Below, in pieces: positions 46,152 to 56,383 of a stretch of DNA of 64,000 nt. A program made the translations under genes and the position numbers. A model generated the notes under the pieces. That model was not told the DNA's origin. It worked only from the letters and a program-made list of their open reading frames with translations, and searched no databases. Source of the DNA: Halorubrum sp. GN11_10-6_MGM (lineage in GTDB: Archaea; Halobacteriota; Halobacteria; Halobacteriales; Haloferacaceae); NCBI RefSeq assembly GCF_005435165.1, contig NZ_SGUC01000012.1, positions 1 through 64,000 of the forward strand, given 5' to 3'. Numbering within the stretch: the first letter of the stretch is position 1; every line of letters starts with the position of its first letter.

Positions 46152-46257
46152 ATGCCGCCTCCCCGATTTGAAACGCGTGAGACTCCCTTCGGTCGTCTCA
46201 CTGTTCCCCGCTCGCTGTCGCTCGTGAGGACGGGGGACAGCTCGATCTTCAGTCGAG
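46152..46257 (-). pseudogene. Partial tRNA-Phe copy with insertion in the T arm
   Basis: The + strand sequence 46152-46172 matches the acceptor/T-arm end of tRNA-Phe (53630-53650). The stretch 46231-46257 matches its anticodon arm and variable region (53651-53677) exactly over 27 nt. The two parts are separated by 58 bp containing a hairpin (GTGAGAC with GTCTCAC). The D arm and 5' acceptor strand are missing, so it is not a functional gene. It is the first of three tRNA-Phe 3'-end copies before the integrase gene. Confidence 0.75.
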
Positions 46258-46287
46258 GTTAATGAACGCGGATCGCGCAAAAAAGCC

Positions 46288-46309
46288 ATGCCGCCTCCCC
46301 GATTTGAAC
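46288..46309 (-). repeat. tRNA-Phe 3'-end copy (old att site)
   Basis: These 22 bases are identical to 53630-53651, the 3' end of tRNA-Phe and one flanking base. They are followed by GC-rich sequence without a gene. This copy lies outside the present element and marks an older duplication. Confidence 0.8.
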
Positions 46310-46406
46310 TCGCCGAGACGCTCGCCCCCGCTCCGCTCGGCCGCTGCGACTCGTCTGCTCAAATCGGCTCGGGAGCATTTTCACTGCTCCCGTTGGTCGC
46401 AGGAAA

Positions 46407-46428
46407 ATGCCGCCTCCCCGATTTGAAC
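46407..46428 (-). repeat. attR of the tRNA-Phe element
   Basis: These 22 bases are identical to the tRNA-Phe 3' end at 53630-53651. It is the copy nearest the integrase gene, so it is the probable end of the integrated element. A hairpin (GGAAGA with TCTTCC) and GACAGCTCG, also a tRNA-Phe segment, follow. Confidence 0.8.
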
Positions 46429-46561
46429 CACCGGAAGACTTCGCTGCGCTCATCTTCCGAGCCCCCGCTCGCTGCGCTCGCGGGGAGGGAGACAGCTCGC
46501 AGAGTACCACGTGTCCACTCGCTTTCCTCTCGACAAAATTCGGCGCTTCGGACCACGAGAT

Positions 46562-47590
46562 ATGACGAAGACAGAACTCGAACCCATTTCGCCGGGTGCG
46601 GCGAAAGAGATGTATCTGGAAGCAAGAAAGAACGAGGTATCACAGAGTACGCTTGACGGCTACCACTACCGTCTCAAGCACTTCATCCGCTGGTGTGAGA
46701 ACGTCGCGGGGATCGACAACATGAACGATCTCTCCGGAAGAGATCTCCAGCGGTTCAAGACGTGGCGGAGAGACGACGGCGATCTGAAGCCGATCACGCT
46801 TCAGGGACAACTCGACGCCCTTCGTATCTTCATTCGCTGGTGTGGATCTATCGACGCCGTAGAGCAAGATCTTCACGAGAAATTCGAGGCGTTGATGCCT
46901 CAACTCAACAAGGCCGACGAACAGAGCGAGAGTATATTGGATACCGAGCAGGCAGAGGCGCTCCTTGAGTATCAGCGGAAGTTCGAACACGCCTCTCGCG
47001 CCCATGTGATTGTGGAGATTCTGTGGCACACGGGAATCCGACTCGGATCTCTTCGCGCGCTCGATCTTGACGATTACGACGGAGATGCCGAACGACTCGC
47101 TGTCCGTCATCGACCAGAAACAGATACTCCCCTCAAGAACGGAACAGAGGGCGAGCGTATCGTCGCTCTGAACGCCGAAGTTTGCCGCTCAATTGAGGAC
47201 TGGAGGGAATATAACCGACATGATGTGGAAGACGAACATGGGCGTGAGCCCCTTCTTACCAGTCGGAATGGCCGTATGAACCCGACAAGCGTCCGCGATG
47301 CGATCTATCGCGTTACTCGTCCCTGCTACTACGGTGCTGATTGTCCGAAGGGCCGTGATCCTGATGACTGTGAGGCGGCTGACTATGGCGGCTATAGTAA
47401 GTGCCCGGTCAATGTTTCTCCTCACGATATTCGACGGGGCTCAATCACTCACTTCTTGACTGAAGATGTGCCTGAGAAGGTTGTCTCTGATAGAATGAAC
47501 GTCGGACAGGACGTTCTGGACAAGCACTACGATAAGCGAGATGAGGAGGTGAAGGTCGAGCAGCGACGTGGATATCTGGACAATATCTAA
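46562..47590 (+). CDS. Tyrosine-type site-specific integrase
   Basis: The 342-residue recombinase has an N-terminal SAM-like core-binding domain (YLEARKNEVSQSTLDGYHYRLKHF...) and a catalytic domain with Arg in HTGIRLGSLRAL. The H-x-x-R box is SPHDIRRGSITH and the nucleophile Tyr is in DKHYDKR. The zinc-like CYYGADCP...CPVN insertion is common in haloarchaeal integrases. The ATG at 46562 gives the usual family N-terminus; an in-frame GTG at 46511 is less likely. Its position beside the att copy at 46407 fits integration into tRNA-Phe. Confidence 0.92.
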   Translation: MTKTELEPISPGAAKEMYLEARKNEVSQSTLDGYHYRLKHFIRWCENVAGIDNMNDLSGRDLQRFKTWRRDDGDLKPITLQGQLDALRIFIRWCGSIDAVEQDLHEKFEALMPQLNKADEQSESILDTEQAEALLEYQRKFEHASRAHVIVEILWHTGIRLGSLRALDLDDYDGDAERLAVRHRPETDTPLKNGTEGERIVALNAEVCRSIEDWREYNRHDVEDEHGREPLLTSRNGRMNPTSVRDAIYRVTRPCYYGADCPKGRDPDDCEAADYGGYSKCPVNVSPHDIRRGSITHFLTEDVPEKVVSDRMNVGQDVLDKHYDKRDEEVKVEQRRGYLDNI

Positions 47591-47592
47591 AT

Positions 47593-48258
47593 CTATTCAC
47601 TTTTATCGTCTTGTGTAAATCTTTTCAGAAGCTTTCTTGCTTGGCGCTTACCAGGAGGGGTTAGACTAACTGTTGCTGAAGGACCTCTCCCCCGTCGGTC
47701 AAAATATCGATCACCTTCTCCTTGATACATATTCCCCATCCCTGATGAAGATACGTCGGAGAGTTCGAGGGCGTCTTTCAGAGATGAGGATTTGATTCTC
47801 TCTACGTCATAACACTCATGCCAAACGTACAATAAGATGAGTGAGGATATTCGTTGTCTATCCGTTTTCCGATTACCGATGTCACCCATCTCGTCAATAT
47901 ATAAGACCGGGAAATCCTCTTCCTGAGGGTCTACATATACGAAATTATCTAATTTGTGTTCGGATATTCTCAATTCGGAAGCGATGTCTGCTAAGGGTCC
48001 AGATTCTTCTTCCTGATCAATGGTCTCGATCTCTGTCTCTGTCTGGTTGCTTTCACCGAACTCTTCCAGAGACTTCACTTCAGATTTGGATTGGTTTATC
48101 TCCGCAGTATCAGACACACCACTAAGTTCATCTAACGAATCTTGGTTATCCTCAATAAACTGAATAAGGTCAAGGACCTCTTTCTGGTAGTCTTCCTCGT
48201 CAAACGCGTGTATTTCTACCTCTAGTACACCATACTCTAATTTTGCTGTAGTTTCCAT
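47593..48258 (-). CDS. Unknown acidic protein of the tRNA-Phe element
   Basis: The 221-residue protein is convergent with the integrase (2-bp gap). The N-terminal half is acidic and probably disordered (SKSEVKSLEEFGESNQTETE). The C-terminal half has a helical, possibly winged-helix region (RQRISSLILLYVWHECYDVERIKSSSLKDALELSDVSSSGMGNMYQ) and a basic end (PPGKRQARKLLKRF). A DNA-binding accessory role is possible. No family recognised. Confidence 0.6.
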   Translation of the reverse strand: METTAKLEYGVLEVEIHAFDEEDYQKEVLDLIQFIEDNQDSLDELSGVSDTAEINQSKSEVKSLEEFGESNQTETEIETIDQEEESGPLADIASELRISEHKLDNFVYVDPQEEDFPVLYIDEMGDIGNRKTDRQRISSLILLYVWHECYDVERIKSSSLKDALELSDVSSSGMGNMYQGEGDRYFDRRGRGPSATVSLTPPGKRQARKLLKRFTQDDKSE

Positions 48259-48558
48259 AGCTCGACCACAAAGTCAAACTATACAAGTATAAGTTCTTCG
48301 CAGGAGTGTGGATGTATCCTCGAATCAGACGAGATAGTGTTCCAGGGCTGTATCTCAAAGAGTATTTTGTATTGTATATGGAGTAAGAAATACTTGTAGA
48401 ACTCTCCTAATAGGTTATAATCCGTGTAGAGAAGCTTTAGACATTTAGAATGTATGATTCATATCTCCCCGAGAATACGAGAATAGTTCTGGAATCCATA
48501 TCTCAATTCAATACCCGGATATCCATTGGGAGTAACACTTAAGTTCTAACCCGACATT
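48259..48558. other. AT-rich non-coding stretch in the element
   Basis: No convincing gene is seen. The sequence is strongly AT-rich with short related pieces (TTCATATCTCC, TCCATATCTCA). It adjoins a GC-rich structured block, so it is a candidate region for the element's replication origin or promoters. This is based on composition only. Confidence 0.3.
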
Positions 48559-48780
48559 GTGTACGGCAAACGCTGGCAATCCCAGTCTACGATTCAGAAA
48601 ACGGTTGAACGTGACTCGGCCCGCGTGGTTCCCTGGCAGGTTCCGCGGGCCGATGGCACAGCCCATGGACACCCTCATCCAGCCGCAGGGACTCGGGGTC
48701 CTTGCGACAAGAGAGGCTGTATAGGGCCTATGCCACAATTACGTGGCTTGGGTCTAATAGTTTTCTCTTGTCTCAGACGG
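48559..48780 (+). other. GC-rich structured block, candidate RNA or origin
   Basis: Within AT-rich surroundings, this block contains a 10-bp perfect stem (48616-48625 with 48644-48653), a smaller GGAC/GTCC hairpin about 48689-48702, and a 9-bp perfect inverted repeat GACAAGAGA/TCTCTTGTC (48706-48714 with 48764-48772). Open frames across it do not look like proteins. It may be a structured RNA or the replication origin used by the PrimPol. Confidence 0.4.
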
Positions 48781-48794
48781 CCGGATACCGACAT

Positions 48795-49358
48795 ATGAGC
48801 TCCAAATCGGACTCAACACCAGCTGACAATCACACGCAGTGGGATGAATTAACCCCAGCACGTCGACGAGTAGCAAAGACTATCGCCCATGTCCACGGGC
48901 CCCAAACGTTCAATCGCCCTGATCTCCGTGAAGACACGGAGGAGGTGGATGATCTTGAGGACACTATCGACGACAAGGAGCGAGTGCTCACATCGCTCAA
49001 ATACACTCGTCTCCTGAACGATCTCGTCGATGATGGATATCTCACGCTCGAACACCAAGGCGGGACTAACCCGATCATCTTGGATCTCGAGTACGACTCG
49101 GACCGGGATACCCGGAACGCAGCCCCATACGGGGATACCAGCGCTCTCCACACCTTGGTGGCGCAGGTATGCGATCGTGAGGGTATCACGCGGGACCTTC
49201 TCGACGAGGTCGATAATCCGTTCGACTTCAACGAGGTCAAGGACAAGGTGAATCGGGCACTTGGCCGAACGGTCCTACAGCCTTACTCCGATCCCAGCAA
49301 GTACCGATTCACATCAGAGACCTACTCTCTCGTCCGGAGCAAGGTCGACGGGAGTTAG
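48795..49358 (+). CDS. Unknown protein, possible winged helix
   Basis: The 187-residue protein starts MSSKSDSTPADN. It has a helical segment WDELTPARRRVAKTIAHVHGPQTFNRPDL that resembles the first helices of a winged-helix domain, followed by LLNDLVDDGYLTLEHQGG, which looks like the recognition helix and wing. The second half is unknown. It may be a transcriptional regulator of the element. The ATG at 48795 is preferred because the upstream in-frame part lies in the structured GC-rich block. Confidence 0.6.
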   Translation: MSSKSDSTPADNHTQWDELTPARRRVAKTIAHVHGPQTFNRPDLREDTEEVDDLEDTIDDKERVLTSLKYTRLLNDLVDDGYLTLEHQGGTNPIILDLEYDSDRDTRNAAPYGDTSALHTLVAQVCDREGITRDLLDEVDNPFDFNEVKDKVNRALGRTVLQPYSDPSKYRFTSETYSLVRSKVDGS

Positions 49359-49423
49359 ACAGGCCGCTAGTTCTACTCCCCCTGTAATCCCATTATTGTG
49401 CTGAAATAGACAATTCGATCCAC

Positions 49424-49522
49424 CTACTCGTCGTCTAGATCTTCAGCGCTGAGATTGTCGGTAAGGTAGATCTCTCCATTTAGTGTGATCCGACCGAATC
49501 CAGAACCAGTATAGTCGGTCAT
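49424..49522 (-). CDS. Small acidic peptide gene (32 residues)
   Basis: An ATG at 49522 opens a 32-codon frame (beginning MTDYTGSGFGRITLNG, ending DLDDE). A GTG at 49540 would add six residues, and the reading frame stays open for another ten codons upstream. The composition is protein-like and halophilic. It lies downstream of the PrimPol on the same strand. Too short for assignment. Confidence 0.35.
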   Translation of the reverse strand: MTDYTGSGFGRITLNGEIYLTDNLSAEDLDDE

Positions 49523-49629
49523 GAGACTAATCCCGGTCACGTCCCATTGACGTGAGTATGATTGGAAAAATCAAATTCAGATCTGGTTCACTCTCCTTCA
49601 CTCCTGGTGAGCTGCTGTAATTACTAAGA

Positions 49630-49977
49630 TTATTCCGGGACCATCTGGTTGCCATCGGCGCTTATATCCAGCGTCGGCTCAGGGTCCGGCTTTCGCTTCT
49701 CACCCTCAACTTTCACGTAACAGGCCTCAGCAGGGTCGGGGTAACTGGCCGGGTAATACACGTAGGTCGTCGAATCTAACCGTGCCATCTTCACGACGCC
49801 ATCACGCCGGAACCGACGGAGAATTTCTCGATACGAATCCTCGGTCAATTTGTACTTTTCCTGCGCTCGCTCGCTGATTTCTGCCATCGTCGGGTGGGAG
49901 CGGGAATTGCGCGAAGACCCACAGTCCTCTGGGGTATTATTAGTAGACAGGTGGGGGGGGGTTCGAAAAGGTCGCAT
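49630..49977 (-). CDS. Displaced C-terminal part of the PrimPol (possible winged helix)
   Basis: This frame overlaps the end of the PrimPol frame and contains a helix-turn-helix-like stretch (MAEISERAQEKYKLTEDSYREILRR in part, then RDGVVKMARLDSTTYVYY). It joins the PrimPol frame at a run of nine C (minus strand; 49953-49961) if the ribosome slips back one base or one C is added. If it is a separate gene, the best start is the ATG at 49887 (85 residues). The tail of the PrimPol's own frame past the C run looks non-native, favouring the fusion reading. Confidence 0.5.
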   Translation of the reverse strand: MRPFRTPPHLSTNNTPEDCGSSRNSRSHPTMAEISERAQEKYKLTEDSYREILRRFRRDGVVKMARLDSTTYVYYPASYPDPAEACYVKVEGEKRKPDPEPTLDISADGNQMVPE

Positions 49978-51071
49978 TCCATGGTGAGACTGTAGAGGGA
50001 ATCGAGTGTAACCTCATAGGCGTGTTCGCAGTAGTCATTCGTACTTTCGTCCTTACCACTCCGCCGCCAGTAGTTCCAGATCTCCGAGTCGAAATTCTGT
50101 AGCGCGTAATTGAGGGTGTTCTGGCGATAGTTCCGTTGTTGATTTGGCGTTCCCTCAATCCACTTGCGGAGATCTCTCCTCTTCTCGGTTCGAGGGTTCT
50201 CAGCAATCGCATTATTCACGTAGTGGTAAGTCAAGTTTCGCGCATTTGCTGGGTTGGCATCTCTGTCGAGGAGAATGCCGTATGTGAGAGAGCAAAGAGT
50301 TGTCTCTGCGCCACTTCTGTCGTCTTTGAATCCTCGTTTGGCGTATCGACCTTTGAGCAGATCTGTGTAGTATTCTCGTGCCCGTGGTCCTGTCTTCTGA
50401 TCGTGTATGAATTCTCGAATGTAGTCTTGGGCCTGTGTGATGGCATCCTCGTCAGGGTCATCATCGGGAAGTTCTCCGATGGCGTCATCTCTGTCAGTCC
50501 TTGTCGTTATGAGATGTTCCCTACAGACCTCCTGAAGTTCTTCGTTCCGCTCCTCGATGGTCTCCGGGGTTGAGCCGAGATGGTCCCCTGTGAAGGTAAA
50601 GTATTGTTCTGAATCGTAGACTTCGATACCGTCGCCGCTCCGGCTCCCAGTATTTTCGGGTTTCTCTCCGATGACTACCGTATGTAGGCCAGTACCAGAT
50701 GGAGATACCTCGGTGTAGGAGTCGATACTCTCGATGATGTGACGGATTTCAGACTCTATATCTCCCGTCTTTGGGTCTCGGCAGTAGTCGAAGTCAATAC
50801 CTACAATTGGGTCATCCTCCGTCAAAACGATCCCAACGCCATCGTAGTCGCCTGCTTGGTAGGTCTTGATGGCCGTCTCGAAGTCACTCCATGTCTCCGG
50901 CTCCTTGGTCGATGCTTTCTCGCCTGCCTCTGGATCGTATGGGGGCTTCTTGTCTCCTCCCTGCTCGTATCGCCAGCAGATCCACTGATCCCGATATACG
51001 ACCGTCTCAGGAACGCTTTCAGCACTTTCAGGGGCAGTACCGTTATCAGGAGTGACTGCTAAATCGGACAT
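49845..51071 (-). CDS. PrimPol-type DNA primase/polymerase
   Basis: The 408-residue frame has an archaeo-eukaryotic primase-like core. It begins with WICWRYEQGGDKKPPYDPEAG, then has the metal-binding Asp pair in GIDFDYC (about 91-97), SPSGTGLHTVV (about 123-133, catalytic His region) and GIEVYDSEQYFTFTGDHLG. A helical C-terminal region follows (about 200-350). Such proteins initiate replication of haloarchaeal plasmids and proviruses. The last 35 residues of this frame after the nine-C run are unlike the rest, and the true C-terminus is probably encoded in the adjoining -1 frame. Confidence 0.8.
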   Translation of the reverse strand: MSDLAVTPDNGTAPESAESVPETVVYRDQWICWRYEQGGDKKPPYDPEAGEKASTKEPETWSDFETAIKTYQAGDYDGVGIVLTEDDPIVGIDFDYCRDPKTGDIESEIRHIIESIDSYTEVSPSGTGLHTVVIGEKPENTGSRSGDGIEVYDSEQYFTFTGDHLGSTPETIEERNEELQEVCREHLITTRTDRDDAIGELPDDDPDEDAITQAQDYIREFIHDQKTGPRAREYYTDLLKGRYAKRGFKDDRSGAETTLCSLTYGILLDRDANPANARNLTYHYVNNAIAENPRTEKRRDLRKWIEGTPNQQRNYRQNTLNYALQNFDSEIWNYWRRSGKDESTNDYCEHAYEVTLDSLYSLTMECDLFEPPPTCLLIIPQRTVGLRAIPAPTRRWQKSASERRKSTN

Positions 51072-51154
51072 GGGTTCGAGGAGTCACCTCGTTCGAATGC
51101 TCGGGGGTTCTGGTTGGGACCCTTGCCCCCGATACTCGCTCCTTTCATTGTGAG

Positions 51155-51298
51155 CTATTCGTTGTTAGCGGCAAGTTCCGTCGCTCCTCGTTCAAGGAAG
51201 TCGGACCACGTGAGTTCGAGTTGTTCCTTGACCATCCTTGCTTTCTGAATCGAGTCTTCATGCGCTGCGATGTCTTTGTAATTCTTCGGATAGGGCAT
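51155..51298 (-). CDS. Small CopG/VapB-like protein (47 residues)
   Basis: An ATG at 51298 opens a 47-codon frame beginning MPYPKNYKDIAAHEDSIQK, with the segment KARMVKEQLELTWSDFLERG. This resembles the helical half of ribbon-helix-helix regulators. A TATA-like CTTATC on the minus strand about 51318-51324 lies about 25 nt upstream. It precedes the PrimPol gene on the same strand and may regulate copy number or promote replication. Confidence 0.5.
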   Translation of the reverse strand: MPYPKNYKDIAAHEDSIQKARMVKEQLELTWSDFLERGATELAANNE

Positions 51299-51444
51299 TA
51301 CCTGTTAAGATATTGGGGATAAGGCGCTATCAAGGAACGGTTTCGCTTAACCCGCTCTAGACGAAAGTTAGTTTCTTGTCACTATCGAAGTGAGCTTTCT
51401 ACTGACAAGTTTCTTTGAGATCCACTTCAAACTCAAACACAATA

Positions 51445-51882
51445 ATGTCAGCAGATGAGTATATCTCTTCAAGCGTCGGTGCTCCACTCGGGAATAATAA
51501 CGCGATCGGGAATCCTGGAGGTGGGGCTCCAGCCAATAATTCGAACGCCATAGGAAACTCCGGCGGTGGTGCGCCCGAGGATAATACCAATAGGAAGAGT
51601 CATGGTGTCTATTGCGACTTGGAGAAGATTGACGATCGAGCAGAGGGAGAAGTCGCTGAATTCATTAATCAAATGGAAACTGTGATTCGGGAACGGGCAG
51701 ATGAGAATTCGAAGGAGGTAGCGCGAGAAATTCCTCTTCGTCTGATCCGATATAACCGAGCAGCTCAGCACATTCAGCAGGAGGGTATGCGATTAGATAA
51801 GGGAGCTAATTCGATGCTTGATACCTCCCGGCGTATCTTGGCTCAAATCTTCCAAGATCTCCAAGAGATTGGAGCAATATAG
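51445..51882 (+). CDS. Protein with GAP-N-N-AIGN repeats, unknown
   Basis: The 145-residue protein has an N-terminal Gly/Asn-rich region with two and a half units of about 17 residues (GAPLGNNNAIGNPGGG, GAPANNSNAIGNSGGG, GAPEDN). Its C-terminal half is helical. The GAP-x-G-N-x-N-A pattern is common at the N-termini of phage small terminase subunits and other phage DNA-binding proteins, which hints at a viral packaging or DNA-binding origin. This is only a motif resemblance. The ATG at 51445 is preferred over TTG at 51415. Confidence 0.6.
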   Translation: MSADEYISSSVGAPLGNNNAIGNPGGGAPANNSNAIGNSGGGAPEDNTNRKSHGVYCDLEKIDDRAEGEVAEFINQMETVIRERADENSKEVAREIPLRLIRYNRAAQHIQQEGMRLDKGANSMLDTSRRILAQIFQDLQEIGAI

Positions 51883-51995
51883 ATCCTGAGCCTCTGGACC
51901 GCAGTGAATGCCAGTAGAAGAAATCCCTCCAGCAAAGATGAGGCTTTCTTCTGCCATCCACCCTCTAATTGCTTAGAGCCGATGTCAGCCCGCTC

Positions 51996-52007
51996 AGAAT
52001 TAATTCT
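51996..52007. promoter_or_regulatory. Palindrome AGAAT-TA-ATTCT
   Basis: This 12-bp perfect palindrome is followed by GACC. The same arrangement occurs at 53385-53396 (AGAAT-CG-ATTCT followed by GACC). Both are in non-coding parts of the element, so they may be binding sites of one regulator. Confidence 0.4.
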
Positions 52008-52140
52008 GACCGAATCAATAGGTCGGTATTCAGAAATAGAGAGACAACCGGGCGTCTCTCGTGCCTGAGCGGGGCCGATTCAGATACCAGATACCGTCTT
52101 ACTTGTCGGACTAGATCTCGCCAATACAGCCCGATTAGTG

Positions 52141-52872
52141 CTAAATGTCATCGAGCAATTCTGCTTTTTTGTCCTCAAACTCTTCGTCTGTAAGGACGCC
52201 ATCATTGTGTAGTGATTTGAGTTTCTCAAGACGATCCAGAGGATCGTCTGAGTCTACACCTGGTTTGTCCTCTTCGCGGCGTCTCTCACGGAGGTATTCA
52301 ACTGCTTGTTCCACCTCGTCATCATCGGAAGTGGTTACCGACAGATGGTACGTGGCACCGCGAGTCTGAAGCGTAAGTCGTGTACTCACTAGGCCAGTAT
52401 TCAAATTAATACTAGTAATCGATCCGTATGGGATAGTGTGCTGGTCATAGCCTCGAAAATGATCGGCAATAACCAGTACACGTTGTTCCGTAAGAACGGT
52501 AAAAGCACTACCAATTCGACGATCGCGATCCCAGCCCGTGATGCTTTCTCCTCCGGCTCCGTCACCCTCCACGTCGATGGAACTCCCCCTCAGGAAATAG
52601 TGTGGTTGCTCGTTCTCATCGAGAAGGTCATAAGGGACTGTTTCATCGTTATTTAGCATCCTGAATAGGTTGTTCGGCCGGATCGATTCACCCTGAGCTT
52701 GCTCGATGATTGACTCCACTTGGGAGATATCCCTGTCTACTGCGGCTTTTTCCTCAAGTCGTTCCTTCCAACGATCACCTGTTTCCTCAACCTTGTTCTG
52801 CCAACGCTCGCGCCTCTTCTCATCCCATTCGTCAAGTCGCTTCTTCGCGTCGGCAAGCTTGTCCCTGATCAT
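52141..52872 (-). CDS. PH-like and SHOCT domain protein
   Basis: The 243-residue protein has a charged N-terminal coiled coil (about 1-60, DKLADAKKRLDEWDEKRRERW). A central bacterial-type PH domain (about 115-205, RIGSAFTVLTEQRVLVIADH...YGSITSINLNTGL...LTLQTRGATYHLSV) follows. A C-terminal SHOCT motif (about 213-242, PLDRLEKLKSLHNDGVLTDE) ends it. SHOCT and PH combinations are frequent on mobile elements and are thought to be oligomerisation or membrane-associated modules. It is divergent from the phiH1-type repressor. Function unknown. Confidence 0.78.
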   Translation of the reverse strand: MIRDKLADAKKRLDEWDEKRRERWQNKVEETGDRWKERLEEKAAVDRDISQVESIIEQAQGESIRPNNLFRMLNNDETVPYDLLDENEQPHYFLRGSSIDVEGDGAGGESITGWDRDRRIGSAFTVLTEQRVLVIADHFRGYDQHTIPYGSITSINLNTGLVSTRLTLQTRGATYHLSVTTSDDDEVEQAVEYLRERRREEDKPGVDSDDPLDRLEKLKSLHNDGVLTDEEFEDKKAELLDDI

Positions 52873-52937
52873 TGTTCTCGATAGGTTACTTACTGGCTAT
52901 TCTGTCGAATAGAGGATATAACTTTCTGACGCGTTCA

Positions 52938-52956
52938 TAGACTCTATAGTAGTCTA
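52938..52956. promoter_or_regulatory. Operator-like inverted repeat before the repressor gene
   Basis: TAGACT-N7-AGTCTA, a perfect 6-bp inverted repeat, lies in the 134-bp space between the divergent PH-SHOCT and phiH1-repressor-like genes. That is where a repressor controlling both promoters would bind. Confidence 0.45.
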
Positions 52957-53006
52957 TTCCATTTTTCCGAAGTCGGCTTTCTATGGCGTGGACCAGTATG
53001 GAGTAG

Positions 53007-53273
53007 ATGCGGTATTCCGCTGACTGGATGACTATCGCCGATGAGCGGATTCTTGAATATCTATCAACGACCGAAACCAGTACGCCCAAGAAGATGGCCG
53101 ATAGTGGTGACGTTCGGTTCTCTCGCCAGTATATCGGAGAACGATGTCGGAAGTTAGCCGATTATAGAATGGTCCAGCACCTCGGGAATGGTGTCTATCG
53201 TATTACCGAAACCGGTGGGCAGTATCTCGATGGAGATCTAGACGCGGCGGATTTAGAATCAAATTCCCAATAG
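53007..53273 (+). CDS. PhiH1 repressor-like winged-helix protein
   Basis: The 88-residue protein has the haloarchaeal phiH1-repressor pattern: SADWMTIADERILEYL, a helix-turn-helix VRFSRQYIGERCRKLADYRMV, and a wing GNGVYRITETGGQYLDGDLDA. It is probably the element's repressor or immunity regulator. It lies near the tRNA-Phe end and is divergent from the PH-SHOCT gene. An in-frame Met at residue 8 is an alternative start. Confidence 0.88.
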   Translation: MRYSADWMTIADERILEYLSTTETSTPKKMADSGDVRFSRQYIGERCRKLADYRMVQHLGNGVYRITETGGQYLDGDLDAADLESNSQ

Positions 53274-53629
53274 AGCCGATTTCTCAAGATGAGGAGACTG
53301 CGATATGAGCGGAGATAATTCTAAATCAGATCCTTTCCTCTGCCGGTGGACCTGAAACCTCTCTCTGTTCTTGTCACGCGGCTTAGAATCGATTCTGACC
53401 TATAGAGGAAGCACAATCCGGGTGAATTCCGAATTCCTCCGTTTCAGACCTTGCGTGTCGAGGATACAGAGACACGAGTAATTCTAAGGGCCTCCCCGGT
53501 CAAATGAGGACGAAGCGCCGGAAGGCGTCGTGGCGCGAGTAGAATCATGGTCAAATCTAATCGGGAGATCGACGGAAAAATCGCCGTAAGGCGTTGCCTG
53601 CGTGCGAATGAGAATCGAGTAGAATCGGG
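53274..53629. other. Non-coding end of the tRNA-Phe element
   Basis: No gene is convincing in these 356 bp. The stretch contains the palindrome at 53385-53396 and several AGAATC/ATTCT half-sites (around 53315, 53480, 53545, 53610 and 53620). These suggest a cluster of binding sites, possibly integrase arms or regulator sites next to the att core. Confidence 0.4.
53385..53396. promoter_or_regulatory. Palindrome AGAAT-CG-ATTCT
   Basis: This is a perfect 12-bp palindrome followed by GACC, matching the form of the site at 51996-52007. Confidence 0.4.
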
Positions 53630-53630
53630 A

Positions 53631-53704
53631 TGCCGCCTCCCCGATTTGAACGGGGGACAGCTCGATCTTCAGTCGAGTGCTCTCCCAGTCTGAGCTAAGG
53701 CGGC
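53631..53704 (-). tRNA. tRNA-Phe (GAA)
   Basis: The 74-nt cloverleaf has acceptor stem GCCGCCT/AGGCGGC and discriminator A. The anticodon stem CTCGA/TCGAG has loop CTGAAGA (anticodon GAA), and the T arm CCCCG/CGGGG has loop TTCAAAT. A TATA-like element on the minus strand (53731-53738) is 28 nt upstream. Its 3' end is the attachment site of the integrative element and is present in three more copies at 46152-46428. Confidence 0.95.
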
Positions 53705-55863: not shown

Positions 55864-56160
55864 AGTGATCGACGGTGTACTGACGGACTCCAAAGCCCCA
55901 GCCACGGGGACTCGCGCGGTTCGTTTCGCGCTTCAGTCGCTCGCGGCGCTCGCTCCTTCCAGTGCTTACGTCGCCGTGCTTCGTCCTCGTGGCTGCCTCT
56001 TTGAGTCTCACCCCGCAAAGCACCGCTGCCTCAGACCTCCCCAGCCTCATCGGCGTCCCTCCGCTTCGCTCCGGCCGACCGACTCCCTCGCCCGTGCTGC
56101 TTCGCGGCCGCCGGGAGCGGCCGCTCACAGGCATGCGCCGTCGCTCGTCGTTTATAAATA
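55864..56160 (-). ncRNA. Candidate structured RNA element, copy 2
   Basis: This element of about 300 bp is on the minus strand between tRNA-Pro and the methyltransferase gene. A TATA box (TTTATAAA) lies at 56151-56158. A 5' hairpin of 8 perfect pairs is at 56104-56111 with 56117-56124. The long stem 55984-55996 with 55899-55911 is paired at 12 of 13 positions in DNA terms and encloses 72 nt with the block GTGCTTACGTCGCC (+ strand). Blocks CTGGGGAGG, the GCGGGGTGAGACTC type and CTGGGGCTTTGG match copy 1 in the same order. Stem sequences differ from copy 1 but pairing is kept, which argues for RNA structure. Confidence 0.55.
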
Positions 56161-56201
56161 GCCGTTGCCGTGGCTCGCGGTGTTGCCCACGGCAGCGAAA
56201 G

Positions 56202-56223
56202 TGGGACCGCCCGGATTCGAACC
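56202..56223 (-). repeat. Copy of the tRNA-Pro 3' end
   Basis: These 22 bases are identical to 56313-56334, the last part of tRNA-Pro. The two copies are 111 bp apart, and the spacer holds a 10-bp hairpin (CTGCTGCTGC with GCAGCAGCAG). No element lies between them. It mirrors the array beside tRNA-Phe. Confidence 0.8.
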
Positions 56224-56312
56224 TCAGTCGCTTCGCTCGCGCTACTCGCATCACTCTCCGCTTCGAATCCGCTCCACTGCTGCTGCTCGCGCTGTCGCTC
56301 GCAGCAGCAGAA

Positions 56313-56383
56313 TGGGACCGCCCGGATTCGAACCGGGGTCACGGGCACCCAAGGCCCGGAGTATACCACTAACCCACGGTCCC
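56313..56383 (-). tRNA. tRNA-Pro (TGG)
   Basis: The 71-nt cloverleaf has acceptor stem GGGACCG/CGGTCCC and discriminator A. The anticodon stem CGGGC/GCCCG carries loop CTTGGGT (anticodon TGG), and the T arm CCGGG/CCGGG encloses TTCGAAT (short variable region). A TATA-like CTTTACC on the minus strand about 56409-56417 is 28 nt upstream. Confidence 0.93.

Follow-up and report, generated by a model that had tools for sequence, protein, structure and literature searches.

Hairpin-bearing cassettes behind the tRNA genes of haloarchaea look like tiny, widespread and fast-changing integrative elements

Why should the 3' end of a tRNA gene be repeated behind the gene, with a hairpin standing between the two copies? 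The question is posed by a tRNA-Pro(TGG) gene on the minus strand at 56313-56383 of the window, by which we mean the whole stretch of 64,000 nucleotides of Halorubrum sp. DNA that was analysed. This gene, the host of the cassette described below, was detected with ARAGORN and matches Rfam RF00005 with 61 bits. The initial annotation had described a repeat of its last 22 bases, a 10-bp hairpin in the spacer and the lack of mobile genes there, and the observation was confirmed. Core copy 1 (56313-56334, minus strand) corresponds to tRNA nt 52-73, i.e. the T-loop, the 3' strands of the T-stem and acceptor stem and the discriminator base; core copy 2 (56202-56223, minus strand) is its exact duplicate 111 bp downstream, measured from start to start. 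The 22-mer has only these two matches in the window when up to three mismatches are allowed, with 0.02 expected by chance.

The 89-nt non-coding spacer between the cores (56224-56312, minus strand) can be explained without any protein gene. Read in the direction of the tRNA, it first presents hairpin 1 (56277-56310, minus strand), whose 10-bp stem CTGCTGCTGC/GCAGCAGCAG is followed by two GA steps that face each other and by an inner stem, GCG/CGC. Two parts that the initial annotation did not contain follow on the same strand. One repeats the T-arm of tRNA-Pro in inverted orientation (56262-56271) and pairs with 56212-56221 in core copy 2; the other is a second hairpin (56222-56261), which lies between these two and is closed by the inverted T-arm together with core copy 2. 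The 111-nt unit of spacer plus copy 2 has a predicted single-stranded DNA fold of -29.6 kcal/mol (z -3.19), which was equalled by none of 200 shuffled sequences; the fold predicted for RNA has a z of -2.53, and 3 of 200 shuffles were as good. A search of the spacer against Rfam gave no family, since the tRNA itself was all that reached the cut-off.

The tRNA-Pro 22-mer was found in 37 of 52 genomes (≤2 mismatches), 13 of which have two or three copies. Hairpin 1 at this tRNA is 91% paired as compared to 56% when the arms are dealt among the loci, where the hairpin scored is the best in each sequence; only 6 of 30 scores exceed the 99th percentile of shuffles. Beyond core copy 2 the DNA has a T-rich start and the hairpin-1-like sequence GCCGTGG/CCACGGC (56160-56201, minus strand). 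Judged from its sequence, this segment may be a further unit of which only a truncated start is left, or the old trailer. A non-coding, dispersed repeat some 250 bp long occupies 55888-56140 beside a cytosine methyltransferase gene; it has 40 scored matches in its own genome (207 candidates on a first look), and some relatives have similar sequence at this position.

The same design had also been noted at tRNA-Phe(GAA) (53631-53704, minus strand). Two cassettes are indeed present there, with distances of 119 and 136 bp between the copies (starting at 46408, 46289 and 46153), but the nearest extra copy is 7.2 kb away from the gene, on the far side of an integrase element. This element of about 7.2 kb (46430-53630, minus strand) contains a primase-like gene, a gene for a PH-domain protein and a tyrosine integrase (46511-47590, plus strand; Pfam PF00589), which shares 45.8% identity with the HHPV4 integrase and 43.3% with the SNJ2 integrase. 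Its distal att site is core copy 2 (46408-46427). Behind it follow a cassette of class B with a 99-nt spacer (46309-46407), core copy 3 (46289-46308), a cassette of class C with a 116-nt spacer (46173-46288) and core copy 4 (46153-46172), all on the minus strand. Elsewhere in the genus, the copies lie directly behind the tRNA in most genomes. With one locus per genome and a limit of 4 mismatches over 20 nt, the 51 loci of the genus had one copy in 9 cases, two in 19, three in 17, four in 5 and five in 1. The tRNA-Phe end is present in all 292 genomes scanned in the class, and the matches listed include 25 genomes from outside the genus, belonging to six families, with tRNA-Phe copies 109-164 bp apart.

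The initial annotation had suggested that the process recurs and that a small element may be involved. We searched for a copy of the last 20 nt of each tRNA (≤3 mismatches) within 350 nt downstream of the same tRNA. Such copies occur at many tRNAs in four haloarchaeal genomes: 11 of 54 in the genome of the window, 18 of 45 in a relative (G022), 13 of 30 in G173 and 12 of 30 in G068. In the first of these all 54 tRNA matches were examined and two of the 11 positives are due to an adjoining full tRNA gene; for G173 and G068 the values refer to the best-scoring 30 of 73 and the best-scoring 30 of 43 matches, respectively. The same search upstream gave 2/54, 1/45, 0/30 and 0/30, and a search for each 3' end in the DNA downstream of another tRNA gave 28/2856, 18/1972, 9/858 and 11/868. 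The suggestion is well supported, in that the design is found at about 10 tRNAs in this genome and in other haloarchaeal families. In a small sample of seven genomes from the phylum but outside the class, none of 24 tRNAs had a copy of its own 3' end. The scan also brought up dense clusters of tRNA genes with a virus- or plasmid-like look (G000:C49:34154-36532; G173:C1:6995-11080 and C2:586079-588480).

Fifty-four copy-bearing tRNAs from the four genomes, minus six, provided 48 units for an analysis of the anatomy. Three of the six were left aside because their first copy is more than 200 nt away; the others are two full tRNA-Asp genes in tandem (G000, G022) and a single tRNA from the C49 cluster. 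The duplicated block in these units extends from tRNA nt 52/53 to 73 and has sharp edges. Identity is 0.38 at position -23, rises to 0.83 at -22 and 0.92 at -21 and amounts to 0.96-1.00 from -20 to -1; past the 3' edge of the core it drops to about the level of base composition. The second copy is exact over 20 nt in 35 of the 48 units. The first base after both core copies is T or C in all 48. Inserts are mostly 75-135 nt long, and the spacers range from 74 to 199 nt. They encode no integrase of their own, being too short for one.

The spacers are not remnants of unrelated integrated elements. One architecture is common to them, in which two cores enclose hairpin 1, the inverted T-arm and hairpin 2 in this order. 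The 13-nt inverted T-arm matches the cognate tRNA with no more than 2 mismatches in 30 of 48 units and with no more than 3 in 41 of 48. At the lower threshold the non-cognate tRNAs gave 14% and shuffled spacers 0 of 960. The inverted T-arm follows its tRNA even at single positions, where A/G, A/T and C/G/T differences are mirrored. The mismatches in its pairing with the core showed no strand bias (42 G.T, 38 A.C). The hairpins are oriented: hairpin cores of the form GA-NC(GNA)GN-GA occur 36 times on the tRNA-sense strand and twice on the antisense strand in 5.1 kb of spacer. The corresponding counts are 7 and 9 in 11.6 kb near tRNAs without a copy and 6 and 0 in 47.1 kb of background. When folds were predicted for 115 units, loops of the form C(GNA)G were the most frequent, and each of the four bases occurred at N (36, 31, 25 and 17). 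Loops of this type are unusually stable in single-stranded DNA, and the tolerance of any N is a preference of DNA rather than of RNA.

We also searched 52 genomes with a pattern that describes a single type of hairpin 2 and nothing else. This pattern occurs 85 times in 41 genomes, and the reversed pattern does not occur at all. We examined 31 of the 85 hits, which lie in 30 loci, and found a tRNA-like core behind the hairpin in each of the 31. This module is present at eight tRNA species (three Gly, two Ala, Lys, Asp and Arg), and in each case it has the core of that tRNA. Twenty-six of the 31 hits are within 600 nt downstream of a tRNA on the same strand; the 3' end of that very tRNA follows 5-9 nt past hairpin 2 with at most 2 mismatches in 24 of them and with 5 mismatches in the other two. 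The core behind the remaining five hits was judged by eye, and one of these is at a contig edge. In two of the five (L281 and L288, around position 1433) the 3' half of a tRNA-Gly is fused to other DNA in front of an array of cassettes, as would be expected where an element that has inserted at the anticodon ends on its far side.

The arrays change rapidly. At tRNA-Phe they differ between genomes with flanks that are 91-95% identical: B-C-B in G022 corresponds to B in G048, C-C in G015 to A-C in G046, and an element followed by C in G001 to no unit in G013 and to B-C-A in G007. Duplication also happens, because identical units are found within one array, three neighbouring ones in G038 and two in G022. 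The decay of the cores with distance from the tRNA is not significant (p 0.15), and growth of the array at its tRNA end is therefore not supported.

Elements of 2-11 kb between copies of the tRNA-Phe end are present in several genera, and the start of the integrase adjoins the distal copy wherever the genes were listed (the window, G001 and G278). Cassettes of class C are related to them: those in G007 and G035 begin like the left end of the element in the window, and class-C 3' parts and hairpins match the integrase-proximal right ends of the elements in G000, G012, G293 and G208. No full-length parent was found for the cassettes of classes A and B, and an inverted T-arm was above chance in the left ends of only 2 of 9 full elements. 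The distal att copy of some elements carries a hairpin segment of about 60 bp between the 5' strand of the T-stem and the T-loop (46430-46510 in the window; also G012, G293, G208 and G202), which is absent from the elements in G001 and G278. Phage and plasmid records searched with the tRNA-Pro region gave a dispersed repeat and short tRNA-like matches in Sulfolobus viruses and no cassette-like sequence; the same records gave nothing relevant with a tRNA-Phe cassette. A scan of IMG/VR with the cores resulted in no match for tRNA-Phe and one for tRNA-Pro, an ordinary tRNA. In the stretches fetched of the attP regions of SNJ2, HHPV4, HRPV9, Halfgib1 and pHK2 no T-arm core was found.

Our preferred explanation, which we hold tentatively and rate at slightly less than an even chance, is a minimal integrative element that is not autonomous: a tyrosine recombinase acting in trans would move the cassette, and the folded sense strand would provide the site for recombination. 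In the predicted fold, pairing of the inverted T-arm with the core at the base of hairpin 2 would make this site double-stranded. The recombinase, supplied for instance by SNJ2-like elements with their att site at tRNA-Phe, would connect the folded site with the T-loop of a tRNA gene; a cassette circle and a single-stranded substrate would be involved. With each insertion the tRNA would stay intact and one core would be added, so that an array is built; recombination between cores would shorten it again. The frequency of the design, the sharp boundaries, the match of the inverted T-arm to its own tRNA, the strand bias of the hairpin cores, the hairpin-2 module at several tRNA species, the turnover of arrays and the resemblance to ends of integrase elements speak for this explanation. 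Against it speak the negative results with phage, plasmid and IMG/VR records, the shortness of the attP sites of SNJ2-type pleolipoviruses, the rarity of the inverted T-arm in left ends of full elements, the lack of strand bias in its mismatches, the non-significant decay of cores and the identical units of some arrays. A bolder form of this explanation is a class-wide archaeal system that inserts gene-free, single-stranded cassettes into tRNA T-loops through the folded inverted T-arm and core. Such a system would be integron-like, with tRNA genes as platforms and with the inverted T-arm choosing the tRNA; we consider it doubtful.

The main competing explanation sees the units as remnants. Elements integrated at tRNAs would have lost their bodies by deletion, leaving two fused ends between att copies as inert scars that descend vertically. 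Class-C units at tRNA-Phe fit this scenario, as they resemble both ends of an integrase element minus its body, and so do the repeat-mediated deletions and partial tRNA duplications in connection with prophages that are described for Haloquadratum in the available text of PMC3119063. However, the units of classes A and B, most of those at tRNAs other than Phe and the unit at tRNA-Pro show the complete architecture and vary little in length, at many tRNAs and across several families, whereas random deletion would give many sizes. Furthermore, continuing constraint is suggested by the strand bias of the hairpins and by the way in which the inverted T-arm follows its cognate tRNA. We judge remnants to be rather unlikely. 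Next comes an element acting as RNA, i.e. a structured 3' trailer of the pre-tRNA for termination, 3' processing or regulation, with the second core as part of the fold. The position of the hairpin cores on the tRNA-sense strand (36:2), the RNA fold predicted for the tRNA-Pro unit and the T or C after both cores in 48 of 48 units are all consistent with it. It is nevertheless unlikely: near relatives differ in the presence of the cassette, most tRNAs do not have one, a trailer needs neither an exact second 3' end of the tRNA nor arrays of up to five, and the favoured loop with any N reflects a preference of DNA.

Simple tandem duplication of the tRNA 3' end and a trailer hairpin, by slippage or unequal crossover, would explain the identical units in G038 and G022. 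It probably contributes to changes in copy number, but as an origin it is quite improbable, given that the units of one array usually belong to different classes, that the duplicated block ends exactly at the discriminator base and that one hairpin-2 module is found at eight tRNA species. We rate equally low an insertion by a transposase or Cas1-like integrase whose cuts would be staggered between tRNA nt 52/53 and 73, so that the core is a 21-22-bp target duplication. The repeat edges, sharp on both sides and always fitting the host tRNA, and the CRISPR-like layout of repeats and spacers are in favour of such an insertion, yet an inverted target T-arm within the insert is not explained by target duplication alone. 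A Cas1-type integration is unlikely because Cas1 was found in only one of seven genomes searched, with none in G000 or G022. Least probable is the idea of the initial annotation that the extra cores are host decoy att sites, which divert integration from the tRNA and protect it. Extra cores do lie beside tRNAs that are targets of integration; in all four loci in which an element and extra copies are seen in full (G000, G001, G278 and G112), however, the element occupies the tRNA-proximal copy in spite of them. G012 and G026, unlike these four, have a long insert behind the second copy. Since integration into a tRNA 3' end restores the tRNA, a decoy would have little to protect.

If the tRNA-end cassette is indeed an integrative element, a large share of the tRNA genes across an archaeal class carries a mobile element that is hidden from gene annotation, and this element has a strand-specific folded site together with an address that matches its tRNA. 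The choice and change of integration sites at tRNAs would become directly testable, and tools for insertion into haloarchaeal genomes might be derived from the cassettes. A caution would follow too, in that a repeated tRNA 3' end alone is no proof of a provirus.

Several known systems share features with the cassettes. Like elements at the att sites of tyrosine integrases in tRNA genes (SNJ2-type, SSV, pT26-2), they have the 3' part of the tRNA as a direct repeat at both ends and leave the tRNA whole. The T-stem-loop is one of three known tRNA target regions of tyrosine integrases according to the available text of PMC8371274. The cassettes differ from such elements in that they have no body or integrase, measure about 100 nt, form arrays of up to five and contain conserved hairpins and an inverted T-arm. 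For SNJ2-type pleolipoviruses the available parts of PMC7911831 and PMC8371274 give an attP core of 13-14 bp and mention no stem-loop; the cassette core, at 20-22 bp and including the T-loop, is set apart from an att site of this type. The 22- and 43-nt tRNA 3' repeats associated with prophages or deletions in Haloquadratum, as presented in the available text of PMC3119063, are partial tRNA duplications as well, whereas arrays, hairpins and an inverted T-arm do not appear in that text. In the open-access literature, excluding subscription papers and preprints, we found no description of arrays of tRNA-end cassettes.

CRISPR arrays and casposons, the latter known from archaeal tRNA ends, resemble the cassettes in their repeat-spacer layout; in contrast to these systems, Cas1 is absent from six of the seven genomes and the spacers are structured and related to each other. 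REP/BIME sequences and other hairpin repeats are likewise short, non-coding and present in many copies, while the cassettes are bound to tRNA 3' ends and flanked by copies of the tRNA. An integron is an array of units, each of which ends in an attC site that can be folded from one strand. The tRNA-end cassettes may have a similar layout, since inverted T-arm, hairpin 2 and core fold together in prediction and the hairpin cores show the strand bias reported above. They contain no cassette gene, however, and their site is the 3' end of the host tRNA.
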